This document shows positions 18,661 through 26,833 of a stretch of 64,000 nucleotides of DNA, in pieces. Each line of letters opens with the position of its first letter. Position 1 is the stretch's first letter. Under the pieces are notes generated by a model. The model was not told where the DNA came from, ran no database searches, and saw nothing but the letters and a program-made list of their open reading frames with translations. The position numbers and the translations under genes were made by a program. Source of the stretch: Bacteroidaceae bacterium (GTDB lineage Bacteria; Bacteroidota; Bacteroidia; Bacteroidales; Barnesiellaceae_A); assembly GCA_017410245.1 (NCBI GenBank), contig JAFQRE010000034.1:1-64000 (forward strand), read 5' to 3'.

Positions 18661-20289
18661 ATGAGCGATATAGACCCCTCGGTGTTTATAGAGGCCGGAG
18701 AGCCTGTTAAGAGTAGCAATGGTGCCAGCATCATACCCATTCCTATGGGCGAGAGTGCCATGGCTCTCACCTATACGGTACACGTCGATGGGAAGGTGCT
18801 GTTTATGAAACGGCTCAAGCCCCATTTACTCACGCAAGATATTTACCGACAGCTATTCAAAAAAGAGTATGAGGTGGGAAGCGAATTGTCGCACCACAAT
18901 ATTGTGCAGTACGAGTTGCTACATAACGAGCCCGACGATTGCTACCTACTCATGGAGCACATTCAGGGCGACACCTTGTCGGAACGCATCTTGTCCTCTC
19001 CTCAATACTTTACCAAGCGGGCTCAATTGGATAAGTTTGTGCTACAACTGCTCGACGGCGTAGGCTATCTGCATGAGCACAATGTGCTACATGGCGACCT
19101 GAAGCCTCAAAACATCATGCTCACTCAGGTAAACAATGATGTAAAGATTATCGACCTCGGATTTTGCCTATCCAATAGCTACACTACCACCGCCGGCATG
19201 ACACCTACCTATGCAGCCCCCGAACAATTGGAAGGCGCATTGAGCGAAATGTCGCACACTACCGACATATATGCCATAGGCAAAATTCTTGAATACATAG
19301 ACCAACGCACACGTAAGGGCTTGCCGGCGATATACCGTCGCATCATGCGAAAATGCCTACACCCAAACCCTGCCAACCGATATAGCAGTGTAGCGGAGAT
19401 ACAAAATGTATTGAATCGCCGTTGGTGGAAACTGAAGCGTGTGTGGGGCGCTGTTGCATTGATCGTAATATCGGTGTGTTGTATATGGTGTGCCGCTCTC
19501 AACAAGCCCCAATCGCTATACGACATCGATAAATATGGCATTGGATATAAGATAATATCGGACGAGAACAATACCTGCGAGGCTGTGTGTCACACAAAAT
19601 ACGACGAAAAAAAGGGAGGCGTAAAAAACATCATCTTGCATAGCATGGTACTCATAAATGGGAAAGAATATAATGTAGTAGGCATAGCCGATAGTAGCTT
19701 TGTAGGCGATACATTGACTCCATCGGTGCACATTCCCGAGGGTGTGAAGTACATAGGTGAAGGAGCTTTCATTGACTTGAAAAATGTAAGTCTTATAAAG
19801 TTGCCCAATAGCGTGACCTATATAGGCAAGGAGGCTTTTATGGGCATGGATAATCTCAAGCACCTCTACTTAGGAAATGGATTAGACACCATCTATGAGC
19901 GCACTTTCGCTTGCAATTATGGACTACTGAAAGTGGAGATACCCGAGGGCATAAAAACACTGAAACTCGATGCCTTTGCCGGCTGTTGGGATATGCAATC
20001 GGTGTCACTGCCATCTACACTGACAACCATCGAGCGGGGTGTCTTCTACCAATGTACATCGCTCACAGAGATAACAATACCCGCCTCGGTAGAATATATA
20101 GGCGAATATGCCTTCTATGAATGTGAGAAACTGACCAAGATATACAACCTCAATCCCACCCCACAACCAGGCAGACCCATTGTAAATAATCCATCGCAAA
20201 TAACACTATACGTGCCGGCCGGAGCAGCTCAACAATATCGTCAGGCCGACTTCTGGCGCGAAATGAACATCACCGAATTGCCCGAGTGA
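18661..20289 (+). CDS. Transmembrane Ser/Thr protein kinase with extracytoplasmic BspA-type LRR domain
   Basis: 542 residues. Cytosolic kinase domain (about 25-255) with Lys50 (FMKRL), a helix-C Glu near residue 69, catalytic loop HGDLKPQN (Asp146, Asn151), a DLG metal motif (Asp165) and APE (185-188 region). The HRD Arg is replaced by Gly and the glycine-rich loop is degenerate (PMGESAMALTY). One membrane helix (about 261-280) follows. Residues about 310-542 are BspA/LRR_5 repeats such as IGKEAFMGMDNLKHLYLGNG, placed outside the cytoplasm by the topology. This is a receptor-kinase arrangement: outside LRR sensor, inside kinase. The LRR type is the same as in the lipoprotein at 13730. Confidence 0.88.
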   Translation: MSDIDPSVFIEAGEPVKSSNGASIIPIPMGESAMALTYTVHVDGKVLFMKRLKPHLLTQDIYRQLFKKEYEVGSELSHHNIVQYELLHNEPDDCYLLMEHIQGDTLSERILSSPQYFTKRAQLDKFVLQLLDGVGYLHEHNVLHGDLKPQNIMLTQVNNDVKIIDLGFCLSNSYTTTAGMTPTYAAPEQLEGALSEMSHTTDIYAIGKILEYIDQRTRKGLPAIYRRIMRKCLHPNPANRYSSVAEIQNVLNRRWWKLKRVWGAVALIVISVCCIWCAALNKPQSLYDIDKYGIGYKIISDENNTCEAVCHTKYDEKKGGVKNIILHSMVLINGKEYNVVGIADSSFVGDTLTPSVHIPEGVKYIGEGAFIDLKNVSLIKLPNSVTYIGKEAFMGMDNLKHLYLGNGLDTIYERTFACNYGLLKVEIPEGIKTLKLDAFAGCWDMQSVSLPSTLTTIERGVFYQCTSLTEITIPASVEYIGEYAFYECEKLTKIYNLNPTPQPGRPIVNNPSQITLYVPAGAAQQYRQADFWREMNITELPE

Positions 20290-20478: not shown

Positions 20479-21180
20479 TTAATATAGTTCTAAAAGTCGC
20501 TTTATTTCATTATTAATTTGTTCAATCACTTCTTTGTTTGCAATTTCCCCATCTAAACTAAAAACAACGAAGACATTACCACTATATTGTTCCTTGAAAG
20601 ATTCAAAACTTGCTTTCATTCTTTCTGTCAATGAATAACTGCCAAAATTAGCGCTTGCTGTAATCGGTTTGATTTGAATGCCAATGGATGCATTGCCGAC
20701 CTTTGCTACATAATCAATATCACCTGCATGGTCTAATTCAGGATCACTTTCCTCGAACTTTATATATGGGAATAGTTTGGCTAATCCATCGTTTATGACA
20801 GATTTTTCACGCAAATATCCATCGTAAGTTCTATTGATGGTAAGATTATAGATATAATCAATACAATCTTGCTCGGTCAACTCTCTAAAAGCACTTTCCC
20901 ACTCAGGAATAACTATCTCCGTAATCTTGGCATACAATCGTTCACCCAATTCTCGTAAACTTTCATTAGTAATCTTGGTGGGTTTCTTCCCTGATGTATG
21001 AGCATTTAAGAAATACCACTGCTCCCATTCTTCAAAAGAATTCGGTTGACACTCTCTAATCAATGCCATAACAGCTCCAACTTTATTGGGACGAGACAAT
21101 TGATATGTTTGACAAGCGTAATTTAAAACACGCTCCTTCTTTCCAAAATTCATTGAATACTTATCCATATACTTATTCAT
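20479..21180 (-). CDS. Type II restriction endonuclease, MjaI-like
   Basis: 233 residues. The C-terminal half carries DPELDHAGDIDYVAKVG then IGIQIKP, a PD-(D/E)XK-type core with Asp154/Asp156 and Gln169-x-Lys171. This resembles the MjaI family, whose prototype cuts CTAG. The specificity here is not certain. Its start overlaps the methyltransferase stop by eight bases, the usual tight coupling of modification before restriction. It is last in the controller-methylase-endonuclease operon. The DNA is visibly richer in A+T than the neighbours, suggesting horizontal transfer. Confidence 0.72.
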   Translation of the reverse strand: MNKYMDKYSMNFGKKERVLNYACQTYQLSRPNKVGAVMALIRECQPNSFEEWEQWYFLNAHTSGKKPTKITNESLRELGERLYAKITEIVIPEWESAFRELTEQDCIDYIYNLTINRTYDGYLREKSVINDGLAKLFPYIKFEESDPELDHAGDIDYVAKVGNASIGIQIKPITASANFGSYSLTERMKASFESFKEQYSGNVFVVFSLDGEIANKEVIEQINNEIKRLLELY

Positions 21181-22456
21181 TTAATAGTTTCTCAAATTTA
21201 GCTTTATATTTAAAGTCTATTGAATAGTCAACATCTGCAAGTCCATTCTTCAACATATGCGCATTTATAAAAGTCTTATTATCTAAATATAAATAGCATA
21301 ATAATGTATTTTCAGAATCATACTTTACTGAATCATATTTTAGAAAAACCTTTCTGCCCTTAGTTTTCTCAATAAGAAATCTCGTAGCGCTTCCATTTAC
21401 AGAAGGTTTCTCTTTTATTCCAATCAGTCTAATTGTTACCCCATTATTAAGTATAATAGTATTAGGAGAAAGAACCCTCTTTACGGAATAATATTCTTCA
21501 CGTTCTTTGCTGTCCTTATCTATTTTTGAACCAAATTGAAGTTTCTTGACATCAATTTTACTTTCCATTTTATGTGGATCATTAAACACATAAGGTAATG
21601 TATTTAGTTTTTCATCTTTGTTAACTATAGAAGAATCCACTATATATATGCAAGTTGAATTGTTAAACAGACGAGCATTATCAACTTTTTGCTTATAATA
21701 ATCCACAAAATCAGGATTAATTTCATAACCTATTGAATTCCTTTGAAGATTTCGTGCAGCTAACGCACTCGTTCCGCTACCCATAAATGGATCAAAAACA
21801 GTTTCTCCCACAAAAGAAAACATTTTGATCAATCGATGAGGTAATTCTTCAGGGAACACAGCTATATGACCATCTTGTTTTGCTCCACCAAAAGTCCAAT
21901 GAGAGGCAAAATAAGTATTCCACTCTTCTTTTGTCATTTCAGACAATTTCTTTTGTTCCAATGATGGGATAGGAGCTTTACCTTGCTTCTTGAAAATAAG
22001 AATAAACTCATAATCTATTTTAAGAATACCATTTCTAGGATATGGGAAACTACCCATAACAGCACCCCCACCAGTCGTATTCATAGTTGTCTGCTTTTGC
22101 CAGATAATTGCACCCATATAATCCATGCCTAACGTTTCGCAAAAACGAATTATCTCAGTTCTGATAGGGATAACCTTATAACGACCATAATATACGGAAC
22201 GAGCAAATTGATCACCAATATTAATACACAAACGACAACCATCATGCAATATGCGATTACACTCAGACCAAACCATATTGAGATTATTTATATAACCCTC
22301 ATAACTATCATGAAACCCTATCTGATTATCACTACCATAATCTTTAAGTTGCCAATAAGGAGGTGACGTAATAATAAGGTGAACAGATTTATCTGGTATT
22401 AAAGACAGATTTCTGCTATCTCCTATAACAAGTGTATGTTTAGTATTTATTTCCAT
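21173..22456 (-). CDS. DNA methyltransferase (N4-cytosine/N6-adenine, beta-type order) with SNase-like C-terminal domain
   Basis: 427 residues. Catalytic motif TSPPYW (30-35) comes first and the AdoMet motif DPFMGSGT (222-229) later. The SPPY form is most often seen in N4-cytosine enzymes. Residues about 300-427 look like a staphylococcal-nuclease OB fold: IRLIGI, FLIEKTKGRKVFLKYDS, LCYLYLDNKTFINAHMLKNG. The Asp after LIGI is Lys, and the Arg that normally precedes the YVYLDG strand is missing. The extra domain is therefore probably a non-catalytic DNA-binding module. It protects host DNA from the adjacent MjaI-like enzyme. Confidence 0.85.
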   Translation of the reverse strand: MEINTKHTLVIGDSRNLSLIPDKSVHLIITSPPYWQLKDYGSDNQIGFHDSYEGYINNLNMVWSECNRILHDGCRLCINIGDQFARSVYYGRYKVIPIRTEIIRFCETLGMDYMGAIIWQKQTTMNTTGGGAVMGSFPYPRNGILKIDYEFILIFKKQGKAPIPSLEQKKLSEMTKEEWNTYFASHWTFGGAKQDGHIAVFPEELPHRLIKMFSFVGETVFDPFMGSGTSALAARNLQRNSIGYEINPDFVDYYKQKVDNARLFNNSTCIYIVDSSIVNKDEKLNTLPYVFNDPHKMESKIDVKKLQFGSKIDKDSKEREEYYSVKRVLSPNTIILNNGVTIRLIGIKEKPSVNGSATRFLIEKTKGRKVFLKYDSVKYDSENTLLCYLYLDNKTFINAHMLKNGLADVDYSIDFKYKAKFEKLLNE

Positions 22457-22733
22457 ATCTTGACATCGTAATTAATTTTAATGCTTTATCAGCCACTTCT
22501 TTTTCATTGTCAATTATAGCATTAACTTTATCTGCAATCCATAGACTCAATAGTTCCTCTTGTTCAATACTTAAAAGATGGGAAAGCAACAAGACTTGTT
22601 CTCTTTTGGCATTTCTATCACCTCGTTCAATTCTACTATACATTGGAACATCAATATTAAGAGCCGTTGCTAATTCTCTTTGCAATAGCCCTTTTTCTTC
22701 TCTTGCTATTTTAATTCGTTGAGCAAACATCAT
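22440..22733 (-). CDS. XRE-family controller protein of the RM system
   Basis: 97 residues from ATG 22733 (longer versions start at 22751 or 22781). The helix-turn-helix occupies about residues 3-57 (FAQRIKIAREEKGLLQRELA then SRIERGDRNAKREQVLLLSH). It resembles C proteins that time expression of restriction enzymes. The 3' end overlaps the methyltransferase start by 17 bases. The shorter start is preferred because a -7-like box (TACATTTGC) lies at 22766-22758, inside the longer frames. Confidence 0.7.
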   Translation of the reverse strand: MMFAQRIKIAREEKGLLQRELATALNIDVPMYSRIERGDRNAKREQVLLLSHLLSIEQEELLSLWIADKVNAIIDNEKEVADKALKLITMSRYGNKY

Positions 22734-22757
22734 AACAATATAATTTGTCATTATTTG

Positions 22758-22766
22758 GCAAATGTA
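22758..22766 (-). promoter_or_regulatory. Possible -7 box of the RM operon
   Basis: TACATTTGC on the minus strand fits TAnnTTTG. No TTG is found at the usual 19-21 base distance (the nearest, 22797-22795, is 28 bases away). It may depend on activation, as C-protein promoters often do; that is inference. Confidence 0.4.
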
Positions 22767-22781
22767 ATCAAAATAATCCAT

Positions 22782-23073
22782 ATTGACGTTGTCGCAATGC
22801 CACTATTTAATTTAAGTTAGGATTTTTCTTTAAATCCTCCAACTAGGAAGAAAGATATTTGCAGAATATATCAAGGTTTTCGGGAACAACCGGAGATGTT
22901 TTGACCAGTTCAAATCAACCTTGAAAAGTCAAGAATCAAAGTAACGGTATAGTAACGAAACTATGTCATTTCTTGGCTTTTCATTGGCATTTGATGGCAC
23001 TACAACATCTCGCAAACATCGTTAAATAACTAACAGCCTACATTCTTCCCCATTTCGCACTCTCTTTTGTATC
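22782..23073. other. Gene-free right part of the RM island
   Basis: About 290 bases between the controller gene and the right direct repeat. A short open frame (up to about 36 codons on the plus strand, ending at a TAA near 22944) shows no family I can name. No tRNA, inverted repeat or integrase remnant is convincing. The composition is A+T-rich like the RM genes, so I count it as part of the acquired segment. Confidence 0.4.
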
Positions 23074-23090
23074 TTTGTATTATCTTTGCA
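23074..23090 (+). repeat. Right copy of the 17-bp direct repeat flanking the RM island
   Basis: TTTGTATTATCTTTGCA, identical to 20339-20355, lying 18 bases before the ATG at 23109. It holds the -7 box TATCTTTGC (23081-23089). Unlike the left copy it has no TTG at 19-21 bases upstream (nearest TTG 11 bases away). Confidence 0.55.
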
Positions 23091-23108: not shown

Positions 23109-24548
23109 ATGGTGGTTATGGAACAACTCAAGCTGCTATATACTCAATACTACGGTGTGCAACCGACGAGTGTACAACCATTGACAGCGGCCGGATCGGG
23201 TCGCCGATATTATCGTCTGCAGGCGGGAGGTAGTCCGCTGGTGGGCGTCGTAGGCGAATCGGCCGACGAGAATCGTGCTTTTATCGCCCTATCGCATCAT
23301 CTGTTGCAAGCCGGTGTGGCTGTGCCTCGTGTGGTGGCTGTGAGCGATGACGGTATGCGTTACTTACAGAGCGACCTGGGCAACACATCGCTTTACGATG
23401 CCTTGGCCGAATGTCGCAAGAGTGGCGTGTGGCATGATGAGGCCACAGAGCTTCTGGCTCAAACCCTCAGCCAATTGGCGCATCTACAAGTTGAGGGAGA
23501 CCGAGACATGGATTACTCGGTGTGCTACCCATCGGCACAGTTTGATGCCCGCACCATCATGTACGACCTCAACTACTTCAAGTATTGCTTCTTAAAGGCC
23601 ACCGGAGTGGTGTTTCATGAGAACTTGCTACAAGACGACTTTGAACTATTGTGTGAGCATCTCATGATGGCCGAGCCTAAAGGGCTGCTATACCGCGACT
23701 TCCAAAGCCGCAACGTGATGATAGCCGACGGCAAGCCATATTTCATAGATTTTCAAGGTGCACGATACGGAGCTATTCACTACGATGTAGCCTCGTTTTT
23801 GTGGCAAGCCCGGGCTCAATACCCCGAAGAGTTGCGTTGCAGACTCATTGATGAATACTTCGGTGCTATACAGAGCTACCATAGGCACATCGACCGTGAC
23901 ACCTTCACACACGACCTCAATCGGTATGTGCTGTTCCGCACCATACAAGTGCTTGGTGCATACGGCTTCAGAGGGTATTTTGAGCGCAAAGAGATGTTTA
24001 TGCAAAGCATACCTGCGGCTATCAACAACCTTCGCACATTGCTCGCGCAAGGTATTGCATCGCCCTACCCTCACCTGCAAGCCACACTACAAGCCGTATG
24101 CAATCTGCCTCGCTTCAATAGCGTAGAGCCTCGCACCAACTTATGCGTTACGGTGTATAGTTTTGCCTACAAGATGGGTATGCCTACCGACGATAGTGGC
24201 AATGGCGGAGGCTATATATTCGACTGCCGGGCCATACACAATCCGGGTCGTTACGAAGAGTATAAGCAACTTACCGGTAAGGATACACCGGTAATAGAGT
24301 TTTTGGAGAAAGATGGCGAAATATTGACATTCCTCAACCATGCCTACGCACTGACCGATGCCTCGGTAGAACGATACTTGCGTCGCGGTTTTACTTCACT
24401 GCAAGTGGCATTTGGGTGCACCGGCGGACAACATCGCTCGGTATATGCCGCCGAAGCCATGGCCATGCATCTGCACAAGAAATACAACATCGAGGTGAAG
24501 CTGATACACCGCGAACGCAACATAACTCAACACTTACTTCCACAATGA
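23109..24548 (+). CDS. Aminoglycoside-phosphotransferase-like sugar kinase fused to RapZ C-terminal domain (AmgK-like)
   Basis: 479 residues. Residues 1-320 are an APH-fold kinase with a catalytic-loop-like LLYRDFQSRNVMI and metal motif FIDFQGARYG. Residues about 340-479 match the C-terminal domain of RapZ/YvcJ: VTVYSFAYKMGMPTDDSG, YIFDCRAIHNPG, FGCTGGQHRSVY. The overlapping downstream nucleotidyltransferase gives the AmgK/MurU pairing, in which MurNAc/GlcNAc is 1-phosphorylated and then turned into the UDP sugar. RapZ of E. coli senses glucosamine-6-phosphate, so the fused domain may sense an amino sugar. An AGGAG 11 bases upstream supports this start; ATG 23118 is an alternative. Confidence 0.82.
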   Translation: MVVMEQLKLLYTQYYGVQPTSVQPLTAAGSGRRYYRLQAGGSPLVGVVGESADENRAFIALSHHLLQAGVAVPRVVAVSDDGMRYLQSDLGNTSLYDALAECRKSGVWHDEATELLAQTLSQLAHLQVEGDRDMDYSVCYPSAQFDARTIMYDLNYFKYCFLKATGVVFHENLLQDDFELLCEHLMMAEPKGLLYRDFQSRNVMIADGKPYFIDFQGARYGAIHYDVASFLWQARAQYPEELRCRLIDEYFGAIQSYHRHIDRDTFTHDLNRYVLFRTIQVLGAYGFRGYFERKEMFMQSIPAAINNLRTLLAQGIASPYPHLQATLQAVCNLPRFNSVEPRTNLCVTVYSFAYKMGMPTDDSGNGGGYIFDCRAIHNPGRYEEYKQLTGKDTPVIEFLEKDGEILTFLNHAYALTDASVERYLRRGFTSLQVAFGCTGGQHRSVYAAEAMAMHLHKKYNIEVKLIHRERNITQHLLPQ

Positions 24549-25267
24549 AAGCTATGATATTTGCAGCCGGATTGGGCACTCGGTTGCGACCTCTCACTGA
24601 CACCATTCCTAAGGCTCTTGTACCGGTCAATGGCAAGCCTCTATTGCACCATCTGCTCACCAAGTTACAACAAGCCGGGTGTACCCATGTTGTTGTCAAT
24701 GTGCATCATCACGCTTTGCAAATAATCGATTACATAGCCACACACAACTATGGAATGCACATAGCCATATCGGACGAGAGCGAAATGCTACTTGATACAG
24801 GTGGCGGACTACGTAAAGCTAAGCAACTACTTGAGGGAGAAGAACCTATATTGGTGCACAATGTCGATATACTCTCCAACCTCGATTTTGAGCCACTCAT
24901 GCAAGCCCACCACCCCGACAACCTTGCTACCGTTGTAGTGAGCCCACGCAATACAAGTCGTTATCTGCTCTTTGACAACGATATGCGTATGCATGGTTGG
25001 ACAAACATCAATAGCGGAGAGGTGAAGCCGGCCAATATAGATACAACACTCTTACAACAATACGCATTTGCCGGCGTACATGTCGTGTCGCCTCGCATAT
25101 TCGACCTCATGCAAGATATGCCATCGAAGTTTTCAATCATCGACTTCTACCTACAAGCTATGGCACAACACCGCATCATGGGATATGTTCCACAAGATTT
25201 TGCCATGCTCGATGTGGGTAAGGTAGATAGTCTCGTAGCAGCCGAGGAGTTCATCAAGCAACTATAA
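24545..25267 (+). CDS. Sugar-1-phosphate nucleotidyltransferase, MurU-like
   Basis: 240 residues. Starts with AAGLGTRLRPLTDTIPKAL, the GXGXRXXPXT...PK signature of NTP-transferases. It continues with VHNVDILSN (the metal-binding Asp region) and ends with a short tail without a left-handed helix domain, as in MurU. Its ATG overlaps the stop of the kinase gene (ATGA), so the two are translationally coupled. In AmgK/MurU systems it makes UDP-MurNAc from MurNAc-1-phosphate. Substrate assignment rests on the pairing. A longer upstream frame to 24416 is rejected as it lies inside the kinase gene. Confidence 0.85.
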   Translation: MKAMIFAAGLGTRLRPLTDTIPKALVPVNGKPLLHHLLTKLQQAGCTHVVVNVHHHALQIIDYIATHNYGMHIAISDESEMLLDTGGGLRKAKQLLEGEEPILVHNVDILSNLDFEPLMQAHHPDNLATVVVSPRNTSRYLLFDNDMRMHGWTNINSGEVKPANIDTTLLQQYAFAGVHVVSPRIFDLMQDMPSKFSIIDFYLQAMAQHRIMGYVPQDFAMLDVGKVDSLVAAEEFIKQL

Positions 25268-25819
25268 TCCCCGTTCGCGCAAAAGAGGCAGTATTTCGTT
25301 CTCGAAAATATCGCGTCGAATGATGCGATAATGCGGGTTATACAGCTCATTGTACAACTTGCTGTGATGAACTACATACTTACCTTGCTGCAACATATCG
25401 GCTATAGCGGTAGAGTCCTCTTGAAAATCGGTTATGAGAGGAGCATGCCGCGAAATGCGATGAGCATTCTCCTTGACAACGGCCAATACTACTTGCTGTA
25501 TGCGTTGCCACTCATTGATCCACACATCGGTAACTTGGGGAGTTACAGCCGGGGCACTACGATAAAAGGCATCGGCAAAGGCATTGAGTGAAACAATACT
25601 ATCGGCCACAACAGCAAGACTCACCCTATAGTAGTTGCCACGCATACCACACGGCTCGTAATAGAGCGCGTCGGTCATCTCAGCCTGCGCCAACTCTTGG
25701 GCTATATATGCCATAGCCTTGTCATACGAGGGTATAGCATGAGCCGGCCCAAAAAAGTCTTGAAAACAACTCTTATAGACATCTTGCAACGAGGTATAGG
25801 GATATCGTTGCAACATCAT
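25262..25819 (-). CDS. Uncharacterised conserved Bacteroidetes protein
   Basis: 185 residues, no signal peptide or membrane helix. Visible patterns include VYKSCFQDFFGPAHAI near the start and EPCGMRGNYYRVSLAVV in the middle, then YVVHHSKLYNELYNPHYRII. I know such sequences as conserved Bacteroidetes proteins without assigned function. It is the last gene behind the DUF362 lipoprotein (24-base gap), and its 3' end overlaps the converging MurU-like gene by six bases. Confidence 0.7.
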   Translation of the reverse strand: MMLQRYPYTSLQDVYKSCFQDFFGPAHAIPSYDKAMAYIAQELAQAEMTDALYYEPCGMRGNYYRVSLAVVADSIVSLNAFADAFYRSAPAVTPQVTDVWINEWQRIQQVVLAVVKENAHRISRHAPLITDFQEDSTAIADMLQQGKYVVHHSKLYNELYNPHYRIIRRDIFENEILPLLRERGL

Positions 25820-25843: not shown

Positions 25844-26833
25844 TCAGTCGATATCGATCAACTCATATTGCTTCGATCCAAGTCCTATCTTCTCGGCATA
25901 ATCGACAATGTGTGTACCATGACGGCTCTTGATGCGCTCGAGAAGAGGCTGATTGTCATTACCCTCGGTAGGCTCGACAGCAAATACAAGGTCGAGACAC
26001 GCCTGATCGAGTGCTACAGGATCGGTAGAGGCCAATATACCTATATCTTTGAGCAGAGGAGCATCGGGGTGAGCATCACAATCACAATCGACCGACAAGT
26101 TATTCATCACGTTGATATACAATATCTTCTCGCCACCATCGAAGTATTCGTGTACCGATTGTGCAGCGGCAGCCATCGACTCAAGAAATCCTATTTGGTC
26201 GCCAACGTGGTTCCAAAATTCGTTCAAATCCTCGGTATAACCAGCACTATGGATATATGCCTTGCCGGCACTCGAAGCAACACCTATAGATTGGTTTTTG
26301 AGCACACCACCAAAACCTCCCATAGCATGGCCTTTGAAGTGAGCCAAATTAATCATAAAGTCGTAGTTCTGCAAGTTAGCACCTACACGATTATATTTGA
26401 TGTGAGTAGTATCTTGTACGGGTATGGTAATATCGCCCTCGGCGTCCATAATATCGACATGAGCAATATCGAAAAATCCATGCTCACGAGCTGCCTCCAA
26501 GTGAGCCTCGGTTGTATTGCGACGACCTTTATAGGCTGTGTTACACTCCACAATTGTACCATTCACTTTCTGTACAAGATTTTTTATCAATGCCGGTTGG
26601 AGGAAGTTTTTACCACCGGGCTCACCGGTACTTATTTTCACAGCAACACGACCATTTGCCTCACGACCTACAGCCTCATATACACGCACAAGACCTTCAG
26701 CCGAAATATCGGTTGTCATATAGACTGCGGGTTTGCTATCTTGAGCCACCTCGGCAGTAGCGGCCTGTTTATTACCACATGCTACGCACAATACGGTAGC
26801 ACATAAGACACATAAAAAGAGTCTCCAATTCAT
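25844..26833 (-). CDS. DUF362 domain lipoprotein
   Basis: 329 residues with lipobox CVAC (Cys19). The body matches DUF362: VAVKISTGEPGGKNFLQPAL, NLAHFKGHAMGGFGGVLKN, and the Cys motif VDCDCDAHPDAP followed by DIGILASTDPVALDQACLDL. The cysteines may bind an Fe-S cluster, but function is unknown. It follows the 2-hydroxyacid dehydrogenase gene by 13 bases and precedes an uncharacterised gene, forming a three-gene operon. Being a lipoprotein, it probably acts on the periplasmic side. Confidence 0.82.
   Translation of the reverse strand: MNWRLFLCVLCATVLCVACGNKQAATAEVAQDSKPAVYMTTDISAEGLVRVYEAVGREANGRVAVKISTGEPGGKNFLQPALIKNLVQKVNGTIVECNTAYKGRRNTTEAHLEAAREHGFFDIAHVDIMDAEGDITIPVQDTTHIKYNRVGANLQNYDFMINLAHFKGHAMGGFGGVLKNQSIGVASSAGKAYIHSAGYTEDLNEFWNHVGDQIGFLESMAAAAQSVHEYFDGGEKILYINVMNNLSVDCDCDAHPDAPLLKDIGILASTDPVALDQACLDLVFAVEPTEGNDNQPLLERIKSRHGTHIVDYAEKIGLGSKQYELIDID

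Follow-up and report, generated by a model that had tools for sequence, protein, structure and literature searches.

What would the C-terminal domain of the RNase adapter RapZ do at the end of a kinase for cell-wall sugars? The question is raised by a locus within the first 64,000 nucleotides (hereafter the window) of contig JAFQRE010000034.1 from a Bacteroidaceae bacterium (Barnesiellaceae_A; assembly GCA_017410245.1), in which an AmgK-like kinase carrying a RapZ C-terminal domain (RapZ-C) is directly followed by a MurU-like gene. A preliminary description of this DNA had proposed that the fused sensor couples amino-sugar salvage to de novo synthesis, with glmS and small RNAs as the link. The AmgK/MurU route is already known, including in Bacteroidia, and so is RapZ-C as a sensor of GlcN6P. 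A description of the kinase-RapZ-C fusion was not found in the open-access literature (subscription papers lay outside the scope of this search), where the one paper naming both RapZ and Bacteroidetes reviews RNA degradation, to judge from its title and abstract. Domain databases may well list the arrangement already.

Gene organization and domain architecture

The reading of this locus as an AmgK-like kinase fused to RapZ-C and lying next to a MurU-like gene was borne out, as both domain profiles are matched within one uninterrupted frame, the stop codon of which overlaps the start of murU (Table 1). Judged by where homologues begin, the internal ATG is the likelier true start of the fusion. 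An AlphaFold model computed with a 51-member family alignment (mean pLDDT 93, pTM 0.74) predicts each domain well, the mutual arrangement of the domains being less sure.

Table 1. Features of the fusion gene, its domains and the adjoining murU-like gene (positions in the window)
Feature	Position	Strand	Remarks
Sequence TATCTTTG upstream of the fusion gene, with weak likeness to the Bacteroidetes -7 element TAnnTTTG	23070..23077	+	sequence reading
Fusion gene, AmgK-like kinase + RapZ-C	23109..24548	+	single open frame, 479 aa; alternative start ATG at 23118
AmgK-like kinase domain of the APH fold, aa 1-315	23109..24053	+	PF01636 and NF045759 profile matches; closest PDB structure 3csv
Catalytic loop R196-D197-F-Q-S-R-N202, Y195 replacing the usual His	23694..23714	+	R196, D197, N202 invariant (51/51)
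D214, DFG-like metal ligand (IDFQG)	23748..23750	+	invariant (51/51)
Inter-domain linker	24054..24140	+	29-53 residues across the family alignment
RapZ C-terminal domain, aa 345-470	24141..24518	+	PF22740; E. coli RapZ-CTD 5o5s
GCTGGQHRS pocket motif (E. coli C247, T248, G249, H252, R253)	24414..24440	+	invariant (51/51) except Q441 (47/51)
ATGA stop/start overlap of fusion gene and murU (translational coupling)	24545..24548	+	same 4-base overlap in 14/55 same-strand pairs measured
MurU-like nucleotidyltransferase, 240 aa	24545..25267	+	NF045761, E 3.8e-40; best PDB match MurU 4y7t

Upstream of the fusion gene, the pattern scan returned no full TTTG-N-TAnnTTTG promoter match at the -7-like sequence, promoter and terminator scans near the gene gave nothing above chance, and an Rfam scan of the window yielded zero matches. 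In the window as a whole, 7 occurrences of the pattern TTTG-N(17-24)-TAnnTTTG of Bacteroidetes promoters were observed, with 1.8 expected.

Several neighbouring genes deserve a brief mention in their own right. A 542-aa protein (18661-20289, plus strand) consists of a Ser/Thr protein kinase domain, BspA-type leucine-rich repeats and, between the two, a putative membrane segment. It is followed on the minus strand (20479-22781) by a compact restriction-modification cluster, which comprises a small HTH protein, an MjaI-type endonuclease (PF09568) and a DNA methylase ending in a staphylococcal-nuclease-like domain (PF01555 + PF00565); the joining of methylase and nuclease-like domain looked unusual. 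Downstream, a 185-aa frame without a Pfam or NCBIfam match (25262-25819, minus strand) converges with murU and shares a few bases with the end of that gene, and a DUF362 protein with a lipoprotein-like N-terminus follows (25844-26833, minus strand).

An AmgK-like kinase paired with a MurU-like nucleotidyltransferase

The kinase part, the first two thirds of the protein, matches the APH family PF01636 (Pfam) at aa 23-255 (E 2.3e-18) and, with full-length coverage, the AmgK model NF045759 (NCBIfam; aa 4-310 of 324 model positions, E 1.7e-19). Its closest PDB entry by sequence is the putative aminoglycoside phosphotransferase 3csv (E 1.8e-26 with the family profile), which was again the closest in the fold comparison of the modelled kinase. 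R196, D197, N202 and D214 are invariant in all 51 aligned fusions, so that the APH catalytic Asp/Asn and the metal-binding Asp are present. All 51 match the RapZ model and both AmgK models, AmgK being the sole NCBIfam kinase family hit at E<=1e-5. The fusion thus resembles AmgK, the MurNAc/GlcNAc 1-kinase of Pseudomonas and Caulobacter (NF045759, NF045698), in its APH fold, full-length profile, catalytic residues and murU linkage, but differs by the additional C-terminal RapZ domain, by a Tyr/Phe in place of the HRD-type His and by scores far below the equivalog cut-offs (70.1 vs 550 for NF045759, 33.8 vs 500 for the second AmgK model); its activity is a predicted one. MurK and K1058, which phosphorylate MurNAc in T. 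forsythia, were considered as relatives and rejected, being ASKHA-fold 6-kinases (PMC10465942) unrelated to the APH-fold fusion.

The partner gene shares with MurU, the MurNAc-alpha-1-phosphate uridylyltransferase (4y7t, 8hhd), the full-length profile match, the motif GxGxRxxPLTxxxPKAL and the invariant D108 and D223, and P. putida MurU (4y7t) is its best PDB match with an E value of 4.9e-24. Throughout the 29 aligned neighbours G9, G11, R13 and K23 are invariant as well, and all 29 match both MurU models, with MurU best and other sugar-1-phosphate nucleotidyltransferases behind. The lead of the MurU models over other NTP-transferase families amounts to about 30-50 bits (138 vs 89.5 for the window gene). 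Yet the window gene reaches only 138.1 bits against a cut-off of 250 (NF045761) and 131 against 370 for the second MurU model, hence MurU-like, with a predicted activity. Because the scores of both proteins lie far under the equivalog cut-offs, we speak of AmgK-like and MurU-like throughout, and of putative substrates. With this restraint in naming, the family-wide matches agree with the original assignment of the pair to the AmgK/MurU route.

Gene order points the same way in related genomes: clustering found both genes in 57 named loci, and in 52 of them murU comes directly after the kinase gene. Beyond murU, the conserved neighbours in 80 named loci are only clade-specific housekeeping genes (chaperonin, GMP synthase, tRNA synthetase, glutamate dehydrogenase, transglycosylase SLT protein), and context therefore adds nothing further.

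Distribution and natural variants of the fusion

RapZ-C was detected in 36 of 296 genomes sampled across the phylum and in 160 of 198 sampled across the order of the window. Nearly all of the frames concerned have the length of the fusion (470-540 aa), the remainder being mostly stand-alone genes of 130-160 aa. Of the first 60 loci, 56 are in-frame fusions, two have the kinase encoded by the gene just upstream, and another two lack a kinase nearby; since one open frame recurs in 56 of these 60, the fusion is no assembly artefact. Named records include Phocaeicola, Bacteroides, Parabacteroides, Prevotella relatives, Paludibacter, Tannerella and Muribaculum. Further carriers are Chitinophagaceae, Saprospirales, Ignavibacteriales, Calditrichia and Delongbacteria, which takes the fusion outside the Bacteroidota into Ignavibacteria, Calditrichota and Delongbacteria. 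The kinase-RapZ-C fusion is an old and widely kept architecture of the Bacteroidota and no oddity of a single genome.

Natural variants exist in which the parts are rearranged. One family (f5, four loci, L152-L155) has three genes in a row, coding for the kinase, a RapZ-C of 139-155 aa and MurU. In two genomes (G317, G430) the kinase gene stops before RapZ-C and murU follows directly, and a bare kinase without RapZ-C occurs in four more (G297, G400, G402, G471). On a quick tree, bare kinases are scattered among fused ones, and the well supported branches imply no fewer than five switches of the label 'bare', a figure that is approximate in view of the quick method and the long branches. RapZ-C is therefore a module that can be separated or dropped without breaking up the pair of kinase and MurU, and given the split-gene family and the kinase lineages without RapZ-C, it looks like an accessory regulator and not like a catalytic part.

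In addition, two genomes (G180, G271; loci L150 and L151) have stand-alone RapZ-C genes, with a divergent kinase far away in the genome. Seven loci (L141-L143, L145, L146, L148, L149) hold MurU-like genes without a kinase in the stretch examined, and some of the genomes concerned (G333, G353, G401, G449, G456) gave zero kinase matches genome-wide at E<=1e-10.

Co-occurrence with cell-wall recycling and the case of Tannerella

AnmK is the anhydro-MurNAc kinase of peptidoglycan recycling. Among the 198 genomes of the order, RapZ-C and MurU occur together in 151, singly in 9 and 11, and neither in 27 (odds ratio 41); for RapZ-C and AnmK the corresponding counts are 125, 35, 10 and 28 (odds ratio 10), and for RapZ-C and GlmS no association was seen (p=0.35), all three comparisons being uncorrected for kinship and draft quality. 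AnmK, present in about two thirds of the order, is absent from the genome of the window and from its two sampled congeners, so the usual supply of anhydro-MurNAc to AmgK is missing here and free MurNAc must arrive otherwise. As this genome lacks AnmK and has both MurA and GlmS, the substrate here would be free MurNAc or GlcNAc.

GlmS above its family cut-off is absent from three fusion-bearing genomes that are each 99% complete (G230, G323, G399) and from five fusion-bearing Tannerella genomes (G492, G493, G513, G520, G525). The absence of MurA was dropped as a test across the order sample, where the 11 genomes without a match were mostly fragmented drafts, and the genus Tannerella was used instead. 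There, G492 (3.3 Mb) lacks MurA and a GlmS above cut-off (a weak partial GlmS match has E 4.3e-14) and retains the fusion and murU; its near sister G493 has MurA and likewise no GlmS above cut-off. The dN/dS between these two genomes is lowest in RapZ-C (0.014), followed by the kinase (0.032) and MurU (0.088). RapZ-C is thus under very strong purifying selection where no glmS exists to regulate.

G492 is probably T. forsythia. This species is described as lacking murA, murB, glmS and glmU and as requiring MurNAc, and deletion of murK leaves it able to form UDP-MurNAc-pentapeptide from MurNAc (PMC5790795). For T. forsythia, one account proposes the AmgK/MurU route (PMC7670621) and another cites it as observed (PMC13046382). 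The salvage proposed there follows the same route in a relative from the same order, and the probable T. forsythia genome G492 has the fusion and MurU; the organism of the window differs by its MurA and GlmS, and the passages on the route in the T. forsythia accounts leave the RapZ domain unmentioned.

Could the pair serve a sugar-1-phosphate other than that of MurNAc, mainly turning GlcNAc via GlcNAc-1-P into UDP-GlcNAc, or act on a different sugar altogether, with MurNAc as a minor substrate? The low scores relative to the equivalog cut-offs would allow it, the NTP-transferase relatives include GlmU-like, mannose-1-P and heptose-1-P enzymes, AmgK also takes GlcNAc according to the NCBIfam model names, and fusion genomes without GlmS need amino-sugar salvage. 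We nevertheless regard this as rather unlikely, given the lead of the MurU models, which all 29 neighbours match, AmgK as the sole kinase family matched in the 51 fusions, the association of RapZ-C with AnmK, and the retention of the pair in the MurA-less G492.

The RapZ domain keeps most residues of its ligand pocket and lacks most RNA-binding residues

RapZ-C matches PF22740 (Pfam) at aa 347-469 with E 1.8e-33 and 115.7 bits (cut-off 27), and the C-terminal part finds the E. coli RapZ-CTD (5o5s) with E 3.6e-14, or 4.3e-28 with the family profile. The pocket of the E. coli domain consists of H190, T248, G249, H252 and R253 (PMC5737377), and the CTD alone binds GlcN6P as determined by SPR (PMC7073468). 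Four of these five positions are invariant in all 51 fusions, as are the equivalents of C247, D182, R184 and H276, and H190 is replaced by Gly in 48. The strictest conservation within RapZ-C of the fusions falls on the GCTGGQHRS motif together with D372, R374, N378 and H467, and stand-alone RapZ-C proteins (137-155 aa) carry the same pocket motif. The invariant pocket residues lend support to the earlier suggestion that RapZ-C acts as a sensor on an amino-sugar kinase.

They also bear on the view that RapZ-C merely serves dimerisation or stability and passes no ligand signal to the kinase. In favour of this view are the stable dimer that the E. coli RapZ-CTD forms (PMC5737377), the existence of bare kinases and the separate RapZ-C gene of family f5. 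A mere dimerisation domain, however, sits poorly with a family whose strictest conservation lies in the phospho-ligand pocket, kept even in stand-alone RapZ-C, and we consider this view improbable.

Compared with E. coli RapZ (5o5o, 5o5s, 8b0i), the fusion shares the C-terminal domain and the phospho-ligand pocket residues C247, T248, G249, H252 and R253, but has Gly at H190 and an APH kinase instead of the P-loop NTPase N-domain, and its RNA-binding residues are mostly replaced or absent. E. coli RapZ relies on H190, K251, R238, K270 and K281-R282-K283 for RNA (PMC5737377, PMC9841335). In the fusions, K251 is Gln in 47 of 51, R238 is aromatic in all 51, K270 is not kept, and the K281-R282-K283 tail is missing, with a mean tail charge of -0.24. 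Basic residues persist at the positions of K170, R184 and R196, those of K194 and R211 are mixed, and R238, K251, K270 and the tail are lost in most fusions. This pattern suggests that the phosphate-binding part of RapZ-C was retained and most of its RNA-binding part was not.

Binding of small RNAs and control of glmS as in E. coli, which would link salvage to glmS expression, accordingly has little in its favour beyond the path of the RNA backbone across this pocket in E. coli RapZ (PMC9841335) and the kept equivalents of K170 and R184. Besides the lost residues, the fusions have Gly at H190, a position at which exchange for Ala inactivates the E. coli protein, genomes lacking GlmS retain the fusion under constraint, and a profile search for the canonical RapZ N-terminal P-loop NTPase domain (PF03668) gave zero matches in the genome of the window. 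GlmY and GlmZ are known from Enterobacterales. Because RNA residues are lost and RapZ-C is constrained in fusion genomes without glmS, feedback on glmS through small RNAs is very unlikely, and the preliminary proposal of such feedback on de novo synthesis, for which the GlmS counts gave no association either, was not upheld. RapZ-C most likely tunes the enzyme directly, and not genes via small RNAs.

That RapZ-C is itself catalytic or required for the kinase reaction, as its resemblance to the fructose-6-phosphate domain of phosphofructokinase (PMC5737377) and its many invariant residues might suggest, is hardly credible given its absence from the kinase-MurU operons of G317 and G430 and from four other kinase genomes.

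A model for regulated salvage

The observed architecture, gene order, conservation and co-occurrence lead us to favour, by a modest degree of confidence, a regulated AmgK-MurU salvage in which a MurNAc (perhaps GlcNAc) 1-kinase feeds MurU and is controlled in cis by an amino-sugar phosphate via RapZ-C; the substrates, the ligand, the direction of control and its allosteric rather than RNA-based nature are what we infer from them. Against this reading weigh the scores far under the equivalog cut-offs, the replacement of H190 in the pocket, the missing AnmK in the genome of the window, the uncorrected co-occurrence counts and the less sure mutual arrangement of the domains. According to this proposal, the N-terminal domain would phosphorylate MurNAc, and probably GlcNAc too, at C1 using ATP, and MurU from the same transcript would convert MurNAc-1-phosphate into UDP-MurNAc, with MurA and MurB being bypassed. 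RapZ-C would bind a phosphorylated amino sugar in its T248-G249-H252-R253-type pocket, and the ligand-bound domain would alter kinase activity in cis, or in trans where the genes are split, so that salvage would track the amino-sugar phosphate pool. GlcN6P is the first ligand candidate because of the E. coli RapZ data; GlcNAc6P, MurNAc6P or the product may take its place. Feedback inhibition of the kinase by ample GlcN6P is our guess as to the direction of control.

More tentatively, RapZ-C might be an old, exchangeable amino-sugar-phosphate sensor that was placed behind sugar-linked kinase domains, of the APH type in Bacteroidota and their relatives and of the P-loop kinase-like type in RapZ, with direct enzyme control being the older function and enterobacterial RNA binding a later one on the same pocket; we hold this to be possible, if doubtful.

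If the model is true, it suggests an origin of RapZ's sensor, and it would provide a simple enzyme assay for what RapZ-C senses, whereas in E. coli sensing and RNA binding are difficult to tease apart. Relatives without MurA may have no other known route to UDP-MurNAc than the kinase and MurU. For much of the gut and oral Bacteroidota, a single protein would meter MurNAc salvage according to the pool of amino-sugar phosphates, with no small-RNA circuit like that of E. coli involved.
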